Shown: positions 28,350 to 48,986 of the stretch, piece after piece
Layout of the letters: every line of letters starts with the position of its first letter
Position numbering within the stretch: position 1 is the stretch's first letter
NCBI GenBank assembly: GCA_902805615.1
Contig: CADCTQ010000001.1
Location: forward strand, 26,598-90,597
Source of the DNA: an uncultured Cytophagales bacterium
GTDB lineage: Bacteria > Bacteroidota > Bacteroidia > Cytophagales > 172606-1
Direction: 5' to 3'
Length of the DNA: 64,000 nucleotides
Program-made: the position numbers and the translations under genes
The notes under the pieces: generated by a model
The model's database searches: none
The model's input: the letters and a program-made list of their open reading frames with translations, nothing else
Told to the model about the DNA's origin: nothing

Positions 28350-28713
28350 GTATGTGCTTAGCGTATATGGGTGGAGATAGGATGGTTTGTAATGGGATGG
28401 GGATTGGTTTATGATCTGTAAGTGGAGTTTGTTCTTTTTGGCATTGCCCCAAAAAGAACCAAAAAGGTCTAGGCCCAATGATGCTTCCCCCCGCCAGTCA
28501 ACCCGCCCCTCGCCATTGGGCCGGGCCCACGCGCCGCGAAACCATCAGTGCCGAAACAACGATAGTAACGCGTAAGGAAAGAACGATACCAGCGTGTAAG
28601 GAAGGGGATCTGCTCACTGACGGCGCCTGCTCACTGCATATCCACACACTGCCTGGCTACTCACTGCCTGGCTACGCACTGCGTATCCACCAGGCAGGGC
28701 GCGAAGCACATAC
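28350..28713 (+). mobile_element. MITE-like element, copy A (364 bp)
   Basis: Terminal GTATGTGCTTAGCG ... GCGAAGCACATAC; 8-bp direct duplication CAAAACCC at 28342-28349 and 28714-28721; core shared with three other copies. Confidence 0.88.
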
Positions 28714-34242: not shown

Positions 34243-35814
34243 TTATTGAAGCTCCAGCACCACTACGGAAAAAGGCGGCAGTTGCAGCGTGAGCTTTTCG
34301 CCCCGCAGCGTTGCCCCTTTGAATATGGCGGGTTTGATGCGGTCCGGTGTTTCAAATGTGTTATGGTCCTGGAGCCTGGCGGCGGTCAAGATGCGGCCCG
34401 TAACGGTTTTCAGTTTACTGGCGGGCAGGGCAAGGGCAACCGGGTGCGCACGCGCAGCGTCAATATTGACCAGCGAAACGTGCAGCCGGCCGTTTCGGTC
34501 CCGGGAAGCGGAAGCCGACACGGCCGGCAATTTTTCGTTTCCGACCCCGTAAGCCGGCGTCTGTACCTCTACGGGCAACAACACGGCTCCCTGGTGCACC
34601 TTATACATTTCCATCACGTGGTACGTAGGGGTAAGCATCATCTTCTCCTCCTGCGTAAGAATGACGGCCTGCAGCACGTTGACGGCCTGGGCCAGGTTCG
34701 CCATCCGGACCCGGTCGCAGTGGTTGTGGAAGATGTTGAGCGTGGTGCCGGCAATCATGGCATCGCGCATCGTGTTCTGCTGGAACAGAAATCCCGGGTT
34801 GGTGCCCGGCTCCACCTCGTACCAGCCGCCCCATTCATCCACGACCAGGGCCACTTTTTTGGCGGGGTCATATTTGTCCATCACGGCCGAATGCTTCCGG
34901 ATCAGTTCCTCCATGCGCAAGGCGCGCTGCATGGTGGTGAAGTATTGCGATTCGGAGAAGGTGGTGGACGGGCCTTTTTTCTCCCAGTCAATCACCGCGT
35001 AGTGATGCAGGGCAACCCCTTCCAGCAAGCTTTTGGGAATGTTCTTCATCAATACTTCCGTCCAGTTGTAGTCGTCCGAACTGGCCCCGGAAGCAATCCG
35101 GAAAATGCCGCCCTTGTTGTTGGTCCAGTCCCTGACGAAGGTGGCGTACTTGCGGTATTCGTTGGCGTAGTAATCGGCCGTCATGTTGCCTCCGCACCCC
35201 CAGGCTTCGTTGCCGATGCCCCAGTATTTCACGTTCCAGGGCTGGTCGCGTCCATTTTCCTTACGGAGGGCAGACATGGGACTCTCCCCGCCAAAGTTTA
35301 CGTATTGCACCCAATCGGCCAGCTCCTGCACCTGTCCGCTGCCGATGTTGCCGGCCAGGTAGGGCTCCGTACCCAGCAGTTCGCACAGGTTGAGGAAGTC
35401 GTGCGTGCCGAAGCTGTTGTTTTCGGTAACCCCGCCCCACCAGGTGTTGACAATGCTGGGTCGCTGCTGTTTCGGGCCGATGCCGTCTTTCCAGTGATAG
35501 GTATCGGCAAAGCAACCGCCGGGCCAGCGCAGGTTGGGAATCTGCAATTGCCGGAGCGCTTCCACGACGTCGTTGCGTACGCCGTTGGTATGCGGGATTT
35601 TGCGGTTATCCTCGCCCACGTAAAAGCCCCCGTAGATACAGCGGCCCAAATGCTCGGCAAAATGGCCGTAAATGTGTTTGCTGATCGTATCCCTGGCCTG
35701 GTCGAGGCGAACCGTGATGGTGGTTGCCGGCGGTTGGGCAAACGCGTGACCGGTCAGTAGCGTGGCGATAAGGGCCGCATAAAACGCAGCCCGGGTTCGT
35801 GGCAAGTGCTTCAT
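34243..35814 (-). CDS. Alpha-N-arabinofuranosidase (GH51-like), secreted
   Basis: IYGHFAEHLGRCIYGGFYVGEDN...LRWPGGCFADTYHWKDGIG...WGIGNEAWGCGG. Confidence 0.92.
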   Translation of the reverse strand: MKHLPRTRAAFYAALIATLLTGHAFAQPPATTITVRLDQARDTISKHIYGHFAEHLGRCIYGGFYVGEDNRKIPHTNGVRNDVVEALRQLQIPNLRWPGGCFADTYHWKDGIGPKQQRPSIVNTWWGGVTENNSFGTHDFLNLCELLGTEPYLAGNIGSGQVQELADWVQYVNFGGESPMSALRKENGRDQPWNVKYWGIGNEAWGCGGNMTADYYANEYRKYATFVRDWTNNKGGIFRIASGASSDDYNWTEVLMKNIPKSLLEGVALHHYAVIDWEKKGPSTTFSESQYFTTMQRALRMEELIRKHSAVMDKYDPAKKVALVVDEWGGWYEVEPGTNPGFLFQQNTMRDAMIAGTTLNIFHNHCDRVRMANLAQAVNVLQAVILTQEEKMMLTPTYHVMEMYKVHQGAVLLPVEVQTPAYGVGNEKLPAVSASASRDRNGRLHVSLVNIDAARAHPVALALPASKLKTVTGRILTAARLQDHNTFETPDRIKPAIFKGATLRGEKLTLQLPPFSVVVLELQ

Positions 35815-35927
35815 TGGGTGGTGAGTTCTCTCCAAAAGTACTGAAAACAGGAACCTTGTCCGGCAGCATTCCAGCCGAACGCAGCAGGAGAACAGCGCTT
35901 TTCCAGCTCACGCCAACGTTTACCGTT

Positions 35928-36340
35928 GTATGTGATTAGCGTATGAGCGTATTGGAGGCAGTTAGGGTGAGTGATGGGTCGGTTGTGATGGGTGGTAATG
36001 TGAGGGGTTGGGTGGTTACAGGATGGTTTGTAATGGGTTGGTGAATGGTTTATGATCTGTAAGTGGGGTTTGTTCTTTTTGGCATTGCCCCAAAAAGAAC
36101 CAAAAAGGTCTAGGCCCAATGATGCTTCCCCCCGCCAGTCAACCCGCCCCTCGCCATTGGGCCGGGCCTGCCCGCCGCGATCCCACCGGTGCCGAAACAA
36201 CGATACCACCGCGTAAGGGCGTATGGAAGGGGGCCGCCCATCGCAACGCCACAAGAACGATACGAACGCGTAATGAACGGTGCCCGCTCACTGCCTGGCT
36301 GCTCACCGCGTATTCACAAGGCAGGGCGCTAATCAAGCAC
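35928..36340 (+). mobile_element. MITE-like element, copy B (413 bp)
   Basis: GTATGTGATTAGCG ... CGCTAATCAAGCAC; 8-bp duplication TTACCGTT at 35920-35927 and 36341-36348. Confidence 0.88.
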
Positions 36341-39294: not shown

Positions 39295-39376
39295 TGCGCC
39301 CGGGGGGATTCGAACCCCCACGCCCAAGGGCGACAGCGTTTAAGTCTGTCCTGTCTACCAGTTCCACCACAGGCGC
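39295..39376 (-). tRNA. tRNA-Leu(UAA)
   Basis: GCGCCTGTGGTGGAACTGGTAGACAGGACAGACTTAAACGC... long variable arm, T-loop TTCGAAT. Confidence 0.95.
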
Positions 39377-39381
39377 AAAAG

Positions 39382-39468
39382 TGTCCACGGAAGGAGTCGA
39401 ACCTTCACTTTCCCCTCGCGGAGAAGCCGTGTTTGAGACGGCTGCGTCTGCCATTCCGCCACGTGGAC
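39382..39468 (-). tRNA. tRNA-Leu(CAA)
   Basis: GTCCACGTGGCGGAATGGCAGACGCAGCCGTCTCAAACACGG... long variable arm. Confidence 0.95.
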
Positions 39469-39480
39469 TGTTGATAAGGG

Positions 39481-39554
39481 TGCCCCCGGTGCGATTCGAA
39501 CGCACACCCGCTGGTTTCTAAGACCAGTGCCTCTGCCAGTTGGGCTACGGGGGC
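39481..39554 (-). tRNA. tRNA with apparent UAG anticodon and short (class I) variable loop
   Basis: GCCCCCGTAGCCCAACTGGCAGAGGCACTGGTCTTAGAAACCAGCGGGTGTGCGTTCGAATCGCACCGGGGGCA; anticodon loop CTTAGAA. Confidence 0.8.
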
Positions 39555-40344: not shown

Positions 40345-41028
40345 CTTCATACCCCCGCCGGGTACGCCGACCCACTCGCCGTGCACGTCAACCACCTCGA
40401 CAAGGTACTCAAGGAAACTACCGGCAAAACCACCGTATGTGATTAGCGTCCTCCCTTGTGGATACGCAGTGTACATAAATACGCAGTGAGTAGCTACGCA
40501 GCGGGCGGGCACCGTTCCTTACGCGCTGGTATCGTTCCTGCGGCGTTGAGATGGGCACGGTTCGTTACGCGCTGGTAACGTTGTATCGGCACCGATGGTG
40601 TCGCGGCGCGTGGGCCCGGCCCAATGGCGAGGGGCGGGTTGCTTGGCGGGGGGAAGCATCATTGGGCCTAGACTTTTTTGGTTCTTTTTGGGGCAATGCC
40701 AAAAAGAACAAACGCCACTTACGCTTCATCAACCATTCCCCATCCCATCACAACCCACCCATCACAACCAACCCCTCACTAACCCTAACCCCCTCACTAA
40801 TCCCATCCGCCTCTAACCCCCACCTGCGCCAATCACATACAAACCACCTCGGGCCTGATTGCCGAACGCATTGCGCAAGAAGCACGCGCCTTGCTCAAAC
40901 ACACGGATTGGACGATCAGCGAAATTGCCTGGCGCCTGGGCTTCGATGAACTCCCCCACTTCATCAACTTCTGTAAAAAACACGTACGGCTCACGCCCAG
41001 GACGTACCGGCGCAACGACGCGGGTTGA
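40345..41028 (+). pseudogene. AraC-family regulator C-terminal remnant, interrupted by MITE copy C
   Basis: ALHTPAGYADPLAVHVNHLDKVLKETTGKTT | SGLIAERIAQEARALLKHTDWTISEIAWRLGFDELPHFINFCKKHVRLTPRTYRR. Confidence 0.85.
40435..40840 (-). mobile_element. MITE-like element, copy C (406 bp)
   Basis: GTATGTGATTAGCG ... CCAATCACATAC; 8-bp duplication AAACCACC at 40427-40434 and 40841-40848. Confidence 0.9.
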
Positions 41029-46099: not shown

Positions 46100-46735
46100 C
46101 TTGCCCACGCAACCGCCTTTCGCTTTCGGGTACGTGATTAGGGCCCTGCCTAGTGGATACGCAGTGAGTAGCCAGGCAGTAAGCAGTCCCCCTTAGGCGC
46201 TGGTATCGTTACGCGCTGGTATCGTTGTTTCGGCACCGGTGGTATCGCGGTGCGTGGGCCCGGCCCAATGGCGAGGGGCGGGTTGCCTGGCGGGGGGAAG
46301 CATCATTGGGCCTAGACCTTTTTGGTTCTTTTTGGGGCAATGCCAAAAAGAACAAACTCCACTTCCCGCAGCATCAACCAATCCCCATCCCCTCACAACC
46401 CACCCATCACAACCAACCCCTCACTCACCCCGTCCGCCCCAAATACGCTCATCACATACGCTTTCGGAGATGGCGGCATCGTTGATGGAAGCGCAACGTT
46501 CCCACACCAGGCCGTTCTCATTGATGTCCCACAACTCATTGCCGTACAAGCGGCACCCCTGGCCGCTCGTAGGTAGCCGTGCAGCAGCACCAGGGTGGGG
46601 CATCGGCCGGACCGGCTTCCCGGTGGAAGACGTCCGGGCCGTTGCTTTTGGCGAAGCGATGACGGGCCTCTTTTTTCACCGGAAGAATGTTTGGCAGGTT
46701 GGCATGAAACAATGACGGAGGGGTTGCCCGCGGGG
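46100..46735 (-). pseudogene. Chimeric remnant: alpha/beta hydrolase N-terminus joined to DUF1348/NTF2-like C-terminus, interrupted by MITE copy D
   Basis: SNGPDVFHREAGPADAP(frameshift)TLVLLHGY, then CRLYGNELWDINENGLVWERCASINDAAISES|ERRLRG across the insertion. Confidence 0.75.
46130..46459 (-). mobile_element. MITE-like element, copy D (330 bp)
   Basis: GTACGTGATTAGGG ... CGCTCATCACATAC; 8-bp duplication GCTTTCGG at 46122-46129 and 46460-46467. Confidence 0.9.
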
Positions 46736-46780: not shown

Positions 46781-47704
46781 TCATTCATTCCCGGTGACTG
46801 CCGCTTTTGGTTGTGCGGTCGCCTGCCCGGCGGCCTGGAGGATGAAAGCAGCTACTTTGTCGGGCTCGGACAGCATCGGGGCGTGGCCGCTTTTCACCTC
46901 GATGGTGGTGGCTTTCATGCGCCTGGCCTGGAACCGTTGCTGGTCCGGGTGGATCATGTGGTCATCGGCAGCCACAATGTTCCAGGAGGGCTTGGTTTTC
47001 CAGGCAACTCTGGAAACTTTGGTTTCGAAGTTCTTGGCGGCCCAGGGGCCTTGGGTGGCGTACACCAGTTCGCGGTCCCCGGGGGGCAGGTCCTGCACGA
47101 AATGCTGGTGCATTCCCTGCCGCGAGAGGGTGAGGAATCCCGCGCCGTCCGGCCGGAATTCGGGGCCGGCCGGCGACGGTGGATAATCTTTGGCCAGGTC
47201 CTTCATGGTTTGCCCCTCGTCGGGCACCCATGCCGCCACGTACACCAGGCCGGCTACCTTGGGATCGTCGCCGGCCTGGGTGATCACCACGCCGCCCCAG
47301 GAGTGGCCCACCAGCAGCACCGGGCCGTCCAGGCGGGCAATGGCCTGCCGGGTGGCCGCCACGTCGTCTTCCAGGGAAGTCAGCGGATTTTGCACGGCCA
47401 CCACGTGGTAGCCTTTGGCTTGCAGGGAAGGAATGATTCTGGCCCAACTGGAGCCGTCGGCCCAGGCGCCGTGTACAAGTACAATGTTTTTCCGGGCAAG
47501 CGCGTCGTCCTGCGGAAGTACGGTGGTGAGTGTCATCAGGAGGAGGGTTGGAAGGGTTGACAGGAAGGTTTTTTTGGGGTAGACCGGGCTTTGCCCCGCG
47601 GGCCGTTGCCCGGCAACCGGCCGGCAGGATGGGGCAGGTGCGTACATCAGCCCATCAGGGTCAGGGGTTGGCGCCATGGAAAGACGGTGGGTGCGGCGGT
47701 TCAA
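46781..47704 (-). CDS. Alpha/beta hydrolase
   Basis: NIVLVHGAWADGSSWARIIPSLQAKGYHVVAVQNPLTSL...LLVGHSWGGVVITQAG. Confidence 0.9.
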   Translation of the reverse strand: MNRRTHRLSMAPTPDPDGLMYAPAPSCRPVAGQRPAGQSPVYPKKTFLSTLPTLLLMTLTTVLPQDDALARKNIVLVHGAWADGSSWARIIPSLQAKGYHVVAVQNPLTSLEDDVAATRQAIARLDGPVLLVGHSWGGVVITQAGDDPKVAGLVYVAAWVPDEGQTMKDLAKDYPPSPAGPEFRPDGAGFLTLSRQGMHQHFVQDLPPGDRELVYATQGPWAAKNFETKVSRVAWKTKPSWNIVAADDHMIHPDQQRFQARRMKATTIEVKSGHAPMLSEPDKVAAFILQAAGQATAQPKAAVTGNE

Positions 47705-47725
47705 CCGGAAGTTGCCTCGTACCGC

Positions 47726-48538
47726 TTACTTGTTGCCGGTGGCTACGGCTTTCGGCCCGGCCGGCAGCTTTTGGGCCGCCGCGACGATAAAGGCCACCAC
47801 TTTGCCGGGCTGCGACAGCATGGGTACGTGGCCGCTTTTGAGTTCAAGGGTGGTCGCTTTGGTCATTGCGGCCTGGGCCCGTTGCAGCGCCGGCTGGATC
47901 ATCTGGTCTTCGGTGTCAATGATGTTCCAGCAGGGCCTGGTTTTCCAGGCAGCCGTGGACACCTTGTCGCTCAGGGCTTTTTTGGCCCAGGGTCCCTGGG
48001 TGGCGTAGGTCACCTTCCGTTCAGTGGGCGTGGCGTCGGGCACGAAAAACGTTTCCATGCCCCGCACGGACAGCGTCAGAAATCCCGCGGCGTCTTCCCG
48101 GAATTCGGCGCCGCCCGGGGCCGGCGGGTAGTCTTTGCCCAGGTCAGCGACGGCCTGCCCGTCGTTGGGCACCAGGGCCGATACGTAGAGGAGCCCGGCT
48201 ACCTTGGGATCATTGCCCGCCTCGGTGATCACCACGCCGCCCCAGGAGTGGCCCACCAGCAGCACCGGGCCGTTCATGCGGGCAACCGCCCGCCGGGTCA
48301 CGGCCACGTCGTCGCCCAGGGAGGTGAGTGGAAGCTGCACGGCCGTGACGGCAAGCCCCCTGGCTTGCAGTTGTAGAATGACCTTGCCCCAACTGGAGCC
48401 GTCGGCAAAGGCGCCGTGGACCAGCACTACGTTTTTTACCCCCACCGGGGCCGATTGGGCCCTTGCCGGGAGGGTGCCGGCAACGGCAAGCAGGAAAGAC
48501 GCCAGTGCAATGAGCACCAGCCGTTTGGAAGGAAACAT
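47726..48538 (-). CDS. Alpha/beta hydrolase (tandem paralogue), secreted
   Basis: Signal peptide; NVVLVHGAFADGSSWGKVILQLQARGLAVTAVQLPLTSLGDDVAVTRRAVARMNGPVLLVGHSWGGVVITEAG. Confidence 0.9.
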   Translation of the reverse strand: MFPSKRLVLIALASFLLAVAGTLPARAQSAPVGVKNVVLVHGAFADGSSWGKVILQLQARGLAVTAVQLPLTSLGDDVAVTRRAVARMNGPVLLVGHSWGGVVITEAGNDPKVAGLLYVSALVPNDGQAVADLGKDYPPAPGGAEFREDAAGFLTLSVRGMETFFVPDATPTERKVTYATQGPWAKKALSDKVSTAAWKTRPCWNIIDTEDQMIQPALQRAQAAMTKATTLELKSGHVPMLSQPGKVVAFIVAAAQKLPAGPKAVATGNK

Positions 48539-48690
48539 GGCTGAAATGGTTTGGTGAAGTGGGCGTAAAACATCAATCGGAGTGATTTGGTCAGCGTTCT
48601 CCGGCGGGACAACGGCCCCGGCACTTGCTGCCTGTATCTGCGCCGGGTAAGCCCAATTGCATGCCAACCACTCTTGCTCACCGTGCCAAC

Positions 48691-48736
48691 GCGGGTAAAA
48701 ACGGCTCTTGCGCGCGAAAAAGCCGTTTTTACCCGC
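48691..48736. repeat. Perfect 16-bp inverted repeat (hairpin)
   Basis: GCGGGTAAAAACGGCT cttgcgcgcgaaaa AGCCGTTTTTACCCGC. Confidence 0.9.
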
Positions 48737-48986
48737 GTACAACACCCTGGGAAAAGGAAGGGGTTGCCTCCGCCCCCGTAGAGACTCGGAGCAGCCCCTC
48801 CGTTCAATCGGAGCTACACCAGCGTTCCGTCAGCGGCTTGGCAGCCGGGCCCCCGGCAGGTGCCGCGAACGGCTTCTCACGGGGGTGGACCGGGTAATTC
48901 GACCGAAGGGGCAATGAAAACGGTAAAATATAATTTTCGTGCGGGATAGGTTTTTACAAAATACTTTATACCTTCACGTTACCCAA

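Follow-up and report, generated by a model that had tools for sequence, protein, structure and literature searches.

A widespread bacterial repeat with a mirror-image linker, predicted to fold into a triple-helical pseudoknot and carried here by a miniature transposon

The four repeats in the window (the whole stretch of 64,000 nucleotides that was analysed) share a near-identical core belonging to a widespread bacterial repeat, a single strand of which is predicted to form an H-type pseudoknot containing a triple helix. We tentatively favour the explanation that the core acts as an RNA, made from the strand opposite to the one on which it was first read, and that it slows the decay of transcripts. 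The sequences directly show the two stems, the pairing of the loop, a linker that obeys the mirror rule and a wide distribution, and the triple helix itself is predicted from them; the RNA nature, the strand and the role we infer in turn.

The first-pass annotation had described four near-identical centres with variable outer parts, and this is what was observed: four copies are present in the window, and within the source genome identity is 88-99% in the core as against 22-46% in the outer parts. Hairpin 1 (GTTCTTTTTGG, a 7-nt loop and CCAAAAAGAAC), already recognised there as an 11-bp stem with a 7-nt loop, occurs four times in the window, where shuffles give an expectation of 0.00, and 117 times across the assembly, where a reversed control pattern was found 0 times; the 9-bp stem GGCCCAATG/CATTGGGCC was present in all four window copies. 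Among 45 copies from the source genome, which are not independent of each other (one vote per genome was used in only some of the tests), mean pairwise identity was 0.995 for hairpin 1, while the second stem had 0.94 in its arms and 0.88 in its loop, and the outermost parts only 0.22-0.46. The rates of core and flank are thus far apart in these copies, and the equal divergence that the annotation had named as speaking against its own reading was not seen. The interval proposed for the core, 36080-36230, starts about 13 bases late and overruns by about 55 bases into the more variable 3' part (Table 1).

Table 1. Positions in the window of the core, of its parts in the copy first annotated, and of the carrier miniature elements (MITEs). 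Target duplications are written on the window + strand.
Feature	Positions	Strand	Length	Remarks
Hairpin 1 occurrences	28431+, 36072+, 40681-, 46325-			Pattern search
Core (candidate triplex-pseudoknot element), copy first annotated	36067..36173	- (strand judged functional)	107 nt	Covariance model 109.4 bits
P1 pyrimidine-rich + strand arm	36072..36082			GTTCTTTTTGG
P1 loop	36083..36089			CATTGCC, one side of the pseudoknot
P1 purine-rich + strand arm	36090..36100			CCAAAAAGAAC
A-rich linker	36101..36108			CAAAAAGG, mirrors the P1 purine arm; proposed third strand
Second side of the pseudoknot	36107..36113			GGTCTAG; loop match imperfect in the source genome, exact in most other species
P2 first arm	36113..36121			GGCCCAATG
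P2 loop	36122..36154			Ends ATGCTTCCCC and CGC kept across genera
P2 second arm	36155..36163			CATTGGGCC
Tail	36164..36173			Conserved GGCC
Carrier MITE, copy first annotated	35928..36340	+	413 bp	Target duplication TTACCGTT
Carrier MITE	28350..28713	+	364 bp	Target duplication CAAAACCC; core 28426-28532
Carrier MITE	40435..40840	-	406 bp	Target duplication AAACCACC; core 40608-40714
Carrier MITE	46130..46459	-	330 bp	Target duplication GCTTTCGG; core 46252-46358

Parsing of about 100 Bacteroidia copies gave a constant plan on the strand on which the core was first read (the reading strand), consisting of P1, its loop, the linker, a loop complement, P2 and a GGCC tail. P1 has about 9-13 bp, with a T/C-rich 5' arm, an A/G-rich 3' arm and a loop of 6-7 nt, and is followed by a short A-rich linker, a segment of 4-6 nt complementary to the loop and, directly, the 9-bp P2, the loop of which mostly starts with ATGCTTCC and ends with CCCGC. 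The two hairpins of the first-pass annotation are present in this plan, but the description was incomplete, as the main features are the pseudoknot and the mirror-image third strand. Covariation, which the annotation had proposed as a check, was found in P2: in 57 distinct arm pairs 88.3% of the pairs are Watson-Crick, compared to 42.8% (maximum 48.3%) after shuffling of columns, and all four pair types occur at nearly every position, the pairing being kept while the sequence changes. For the pseudoknot, the longest match of the loop to the complement of the segment that follows was 4.56 in Bacteroidia compared to 3.76 in permutations (maximum 4.15), and in a multi-phylum set of 80 loci the mean loop complement was 3.70 compared to 1.58 (permutation maximum 2.25). 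The loop complement thus exceeds all 1000 permutations in two independent sets, as expected of an H-type pseudoknot; in the source genome the pairing of CATTGCC with GGTCTAG is imperfect.

The Rfam search that had also been proposed gave no family, with no match in the window at the gathering score and none over the core in 16 sources at E values up to 1, and a known Rfam RNA was therefore rejected. A protein-coding core was likewise rejected: a reading frame across P1 and the linker does not seem to be kept, because the copies differ there by single bases. Open frames do cross the core in the window, at 35811-36254 (-), 40551-40949 (+), 46225-46485 (+) and 46239-46715 (+), for example with ...GLDLFGSFWGNAKKNK...; these are likely annotation artefacts which could be miscalled as small proteins.

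The linker is the mirror image of the P1 purine strand. A scan for the hairpin only (TTACTTTCTTTTG-N5..8-CAAAAGAAAGTAA), which was blind to the linker and used an asymmetric query tract on one genome collection, returned 80 loci, most of them in Bacteroidota and in Beta- and Gammaproteobacteria, with isolated records elsewhere, for example in Spirochaetes. The mirror AAAGAAAA follows in 68 of these 80 hairpins and the direct copy AAAAGAAA in 0, which is the pattern of a triplex repeat; all DNA collected gave 125 mirror cases, 6 fitting both and 0 direct, some hairpins being counted repeatedly. As a triplex needs a mirror copy, the linker may be read as the code for an intrastrand triple helix. 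Strand exchange, in which the linker would compete with the purine arm for pairing to the U-rich arm, requires a direct copy and was rejected, since none was observed.

Outside the source genome, the core was found in different flanks in two congeneric genomes and in one from a second genus of the family, and P2 is altered there on both sides (GGCCCAATG/CATTGGGCC, GGCAAAATG/CATTTTGCC, GAAAAAATA/TATTTTTTC, GAAAATTTG/CAAATTTTC). A covariance model made from seven copies (the first model was hand-built from few sequences) detected the core in 75 Bacteroidia genomes, belonging to 52 genera, among the 392 searched, and a Fusobacterium (Ilyobacter) copy obeys the same linker and loop rules. By these searches the family spans Bacteroidota, Proteobacteria and Fusobacteria, and it probably also occurs in Spirochaetes. 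A separate conserved region follows the P1 module in Proteobacteria, with motifs such as GAGTAGCGCAGGGAA and GTTTGAGCG..GCGAGTT (loci L232, L241, L246, L251, L253, L288, L291 and L297 in Methylobacter and relatives; L220-L298 in Betaproteobacteria). Homology between this region and the Bacteroidia P2 could not be shown, and what the two groups certainly have in common is the P1-linker-pseudoknot module only. The proteobacterial version matched 5 of 72,556 plasmid records and 0 of 50,697 phage records, and phage or plasmid cargo was rejected on this absence and near absence. A partner gene was rejected as well, as no ORF family recurred at more than 6 of 150 loci.

The functional strand is probably the one opposite to the reading strand. 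On the reading strand, P1 has A-C mispairs in nine genomes as opposed to G-T mispairs in one (p 0.02), and P1 and P2 together, P2 being less cleanly parsed, have A-C to G-T mispairs in a ratio of 14 to 3 (p 0.01), which favours the opposite strand because an A-C mispair corresponds to G-U on the complementary strand. The first P1 parser preferred G-T over A-C, a bias against this conclusion, while the mispair count treats both alike. The predicted strand is co-directional with the upstream gene in 28 Bacteroidia genomes versus 8 (p 0.001), and judging from its position the core is often downstream of genes in this group, although it tends to lie far from the upstream gene (median about 270 bases, from crude ORF calls). 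The multi-phylum set, in which the ORF calls are crude, has no such orientation bias (23 versus 20). The opposite strand would give a triplex of the pyrimidine type, which forms in RNA while the purine type does not (PMC4666352). The window copy, in contrast, folds better on the + strand (z -2.3 versus -0.7), partly through two G-U pairs that lengthen its P2 on that strand.

Read on the opposite strand, the element would start with the GGCC tail, P2 (9 bp, with a G-rich loop), the first pseudoknot strand and a pyrimidine-rich linker, and continue with the U-rich P1 5' arm, the second pseudoknot strand (the P1 loop) and the A-rich P1 3' arm, which is the last conserved part on this strand. The linker would occupy the P1 major groove and run parallel to the A-rich arm, making U.A-U triples and, where P1 has a C-G pair, C.G-C triples, which require protonation, and the loop pairing would lock this third strand in place. 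Such a structure in the 3'-UTR or in intergenic RNA could seal the A-rich end of the transcript in a triple helix and slow its decay in the 3'-to-5' direction. In the source genome, one version of the core is carried by a transposon with inverted ends, which has amplified it.

Telomerase RNA and the SAM-II riboswitch contain H-type pseudoknots in which a U.A-U triple helix forms in the major groove. The SAM-V riboswitch is described as such a pseudoknot (PMC6061858). In all of these, as in the core, a pyrimidine-rich first loop is positioned so that it can follow an A-U-rich second stem; the core differs in being dispersed in multiple copies and in its stem of 9-13 bp, and a ligand, a template or control of a downstream gene is not indicated. 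Viral ENE elements form a triple helix at the 3' end of the RNA. The same is known from the 3' end of MALAT1 (PMC11411715), and the core resembles both in the order of a U-rich, a second U-rich and an A-rich strand, the A-rich one being last. Unlike them, the core is bacterial and held by a pseudoknot, and there is no homology; a role in stability is suggested by analogy. As the closest functional parallel, these 3'-end triplexes are the reason why slowing of exonuclease decay is our first choice of role. A bolder and at present doubtful possibility is that the repeats constitute an undescribed, bacteria-wide family of RNAs (Bacteroidota, Proteobacteria, Fusobacteriota and probably Spirochaetota) with triplex-sealed A-rich 3' ends, which would be a bacterial counterpart of MALAT1 and ENE amplified as a genomic repeat and, here, as transposon cargo.

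The main rival explanation is a role as DNA, in which an intrastrand triplex of the BoxC/PIT kind would fold upon strand separation, cause replication to stall and favour rearrangement, RNA having no part in it. Repeats forming intrastrand triplexes are known from E. coli as BoxC, the PIT element or TM_ECO (Holder et al. 2015, PMC4666352). Like BoxC/PIT, the core has a hairpin with one pyrimidine and one purine arm, after which the purine arm is repeated in mirror image, and it is multi-copy, intergenic and chromosomal, with no partner gene; the shared mirror principle speaks for a DNA role, as BoxC folds as DNA in vitro and is tied to genome instability (PMC4666352), and so does the near absence from plasmids and absence from the phages searched, in which BoxC is alike. 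However, the strand asymmetry of the P1 mispairs and the co-directionality with genes in Bacteroidia are against it, the asymmetry only mildly because single-stranded DNA would also prefer G-T. We regard a role as DNA alone as possible but somewhat unlikely. The principle is common to both repeats, the sequence is not: the BoxC consensus is G/C-rich with a 3-nt linker (CCCTCNCCC..GGGNGAGGG..N3..GGGNGAGGG; PMC4666352), whereas the core is A/T-rich, does not fit this consensus, and adds the pseudoknot and, in Bacteroidia, the covarying 9-bp P2. Five E. coli BoxC copies, taken from five other strains as the coordinates of the paper's primers contain no BoxC in the current MG1655 record, had the mirror third strand and neither a loop complement just after it nor a P2. 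Bacterial A/T-rich triplex motifs were given less weight in that work because they are commoner in scrambled genomes (PMC4666352). No earlier description of the core was found in the open-access literature, motif strings included; an earlier mention elsewhere, as in subscription journals or preprints, may exist. Mirror linker, paired loop and stem covariation together define a searchable multi-phylum family absent from Rfam. Because the sequence rules name each strand and contact, they also open the long-standing question of the function of BoxC-like triplex repeats to testing.

The next rival, mobilisation in trans of a REP-like element by a Y1 transposase (RAYT or IS200-type) that recognises the folded single strand, seems unlikely to us. 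Di Nocera et al. (2013, PMC3733652) describe REPs as palindromes of 20-40 bp, one end of which bears a tetranucleotide tag, and the words triplex and pseudoknot are absent from that paper. The core shares with the GTAG- and CGTC-tagged REP/RAYT repeats that it is small, intergenic, palindromic and found in many phyla; mobilisation by Y1 would fit its multiple intergenic copies with species-specific versions and its arrangement in one genome, where it recurs together with other palindromes in units of about 300 bp. Matches to Y1_Tnp are also commoner in genomes with the core (61 of 75 versus 200 of 317, p 0.003), but 14 core-positive genomes, including one with at least nine copies (G227), have no Y1_Tnp match at all, and the core carries neither a GTAG nor a CGTC tag. 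It lies near only 2 of 28 Y1_Tnp loci, one of these being a MITE copy beside the Y1 gene of the source genome, and that gene is flanked by a different palindrome, GTCCCGTAGGGAC; on these two grounds the core was rejected as the REP of a RAYT.

Returning to the favoured reading, in which the core is carried by a transposon, this carrier is a MITE that ends in the terminal inverted repeats GTATGTGATTAGCG / CGCTAATCACATAC and is flanked by target duplications of 8 bp. Among the source-genome loci examined, 26 elements have matching 8-bp duplications (at least 7 of 8 identical), as expected of a MITE; 15 of these bear the core (306-453 bp) and 11 do not, so that the core is cargo of an ordinary MITE family. 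On the evidence of these copies, a small transposon took up the core and spread it to more than 100 sites in the source genome, and the core is, by its distribution, older and wider than its carrier. It is very improbable that the core is merely the inner part of the MITE, alike through recent amplification and with chance hairpins: the source-genome copies do lie inside genuine elements with inverted repeats and target duplications, but the occurrence of the core in unrelated Bacteroidia flanks and of the P1-linker module in other phyla, the P2 covariation and the far faster divergence of the flanks contradict this. The suggestion of the first-pass annotation that the MITE holds a conserved structured cargo has therefore stood, with strong covariation, faster-diverging flanks, coreless elements with the same ends and the core elsewhere without the MITE. 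No autonomous relative with the carrier ends was seen in a search confined to the IS66 family, and IS66 was rejected as the source of the transposase, the only IS66-type gene found having different ends.

Several of the coreless GTATGTGATTAGCG-ended elements with 8-bp duplications (L104-L110 and L119, source genome) are long fold-backs with nearly complementary halves. Elsewhere in the source genome (C519; L127, 1200-2200), a Y1_Tnp gene with GTCCCGTAGGGAC on both sides apparently forms a REP/RAYT pair, and a core MITE lies about 0.7 kb off. The units of about 300 bp at L185, 11500-15000 (G164) join the core to the palindromes AAAGCTCCGTAGGAGC, CCCGGGTTTTAACCCGGG and CCCCAGCGCTGGCGC in a composite repeat array. 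In the window, three consecutive tRNA genes (39295-39554, -) are located between two core-bearing MITEs, and two adjacent look-alike ORFs (46781-48745, -), the first of which is an alpha/beta hydrolase by Pfam, are probably a tandem duplication, as judged from their similarity.
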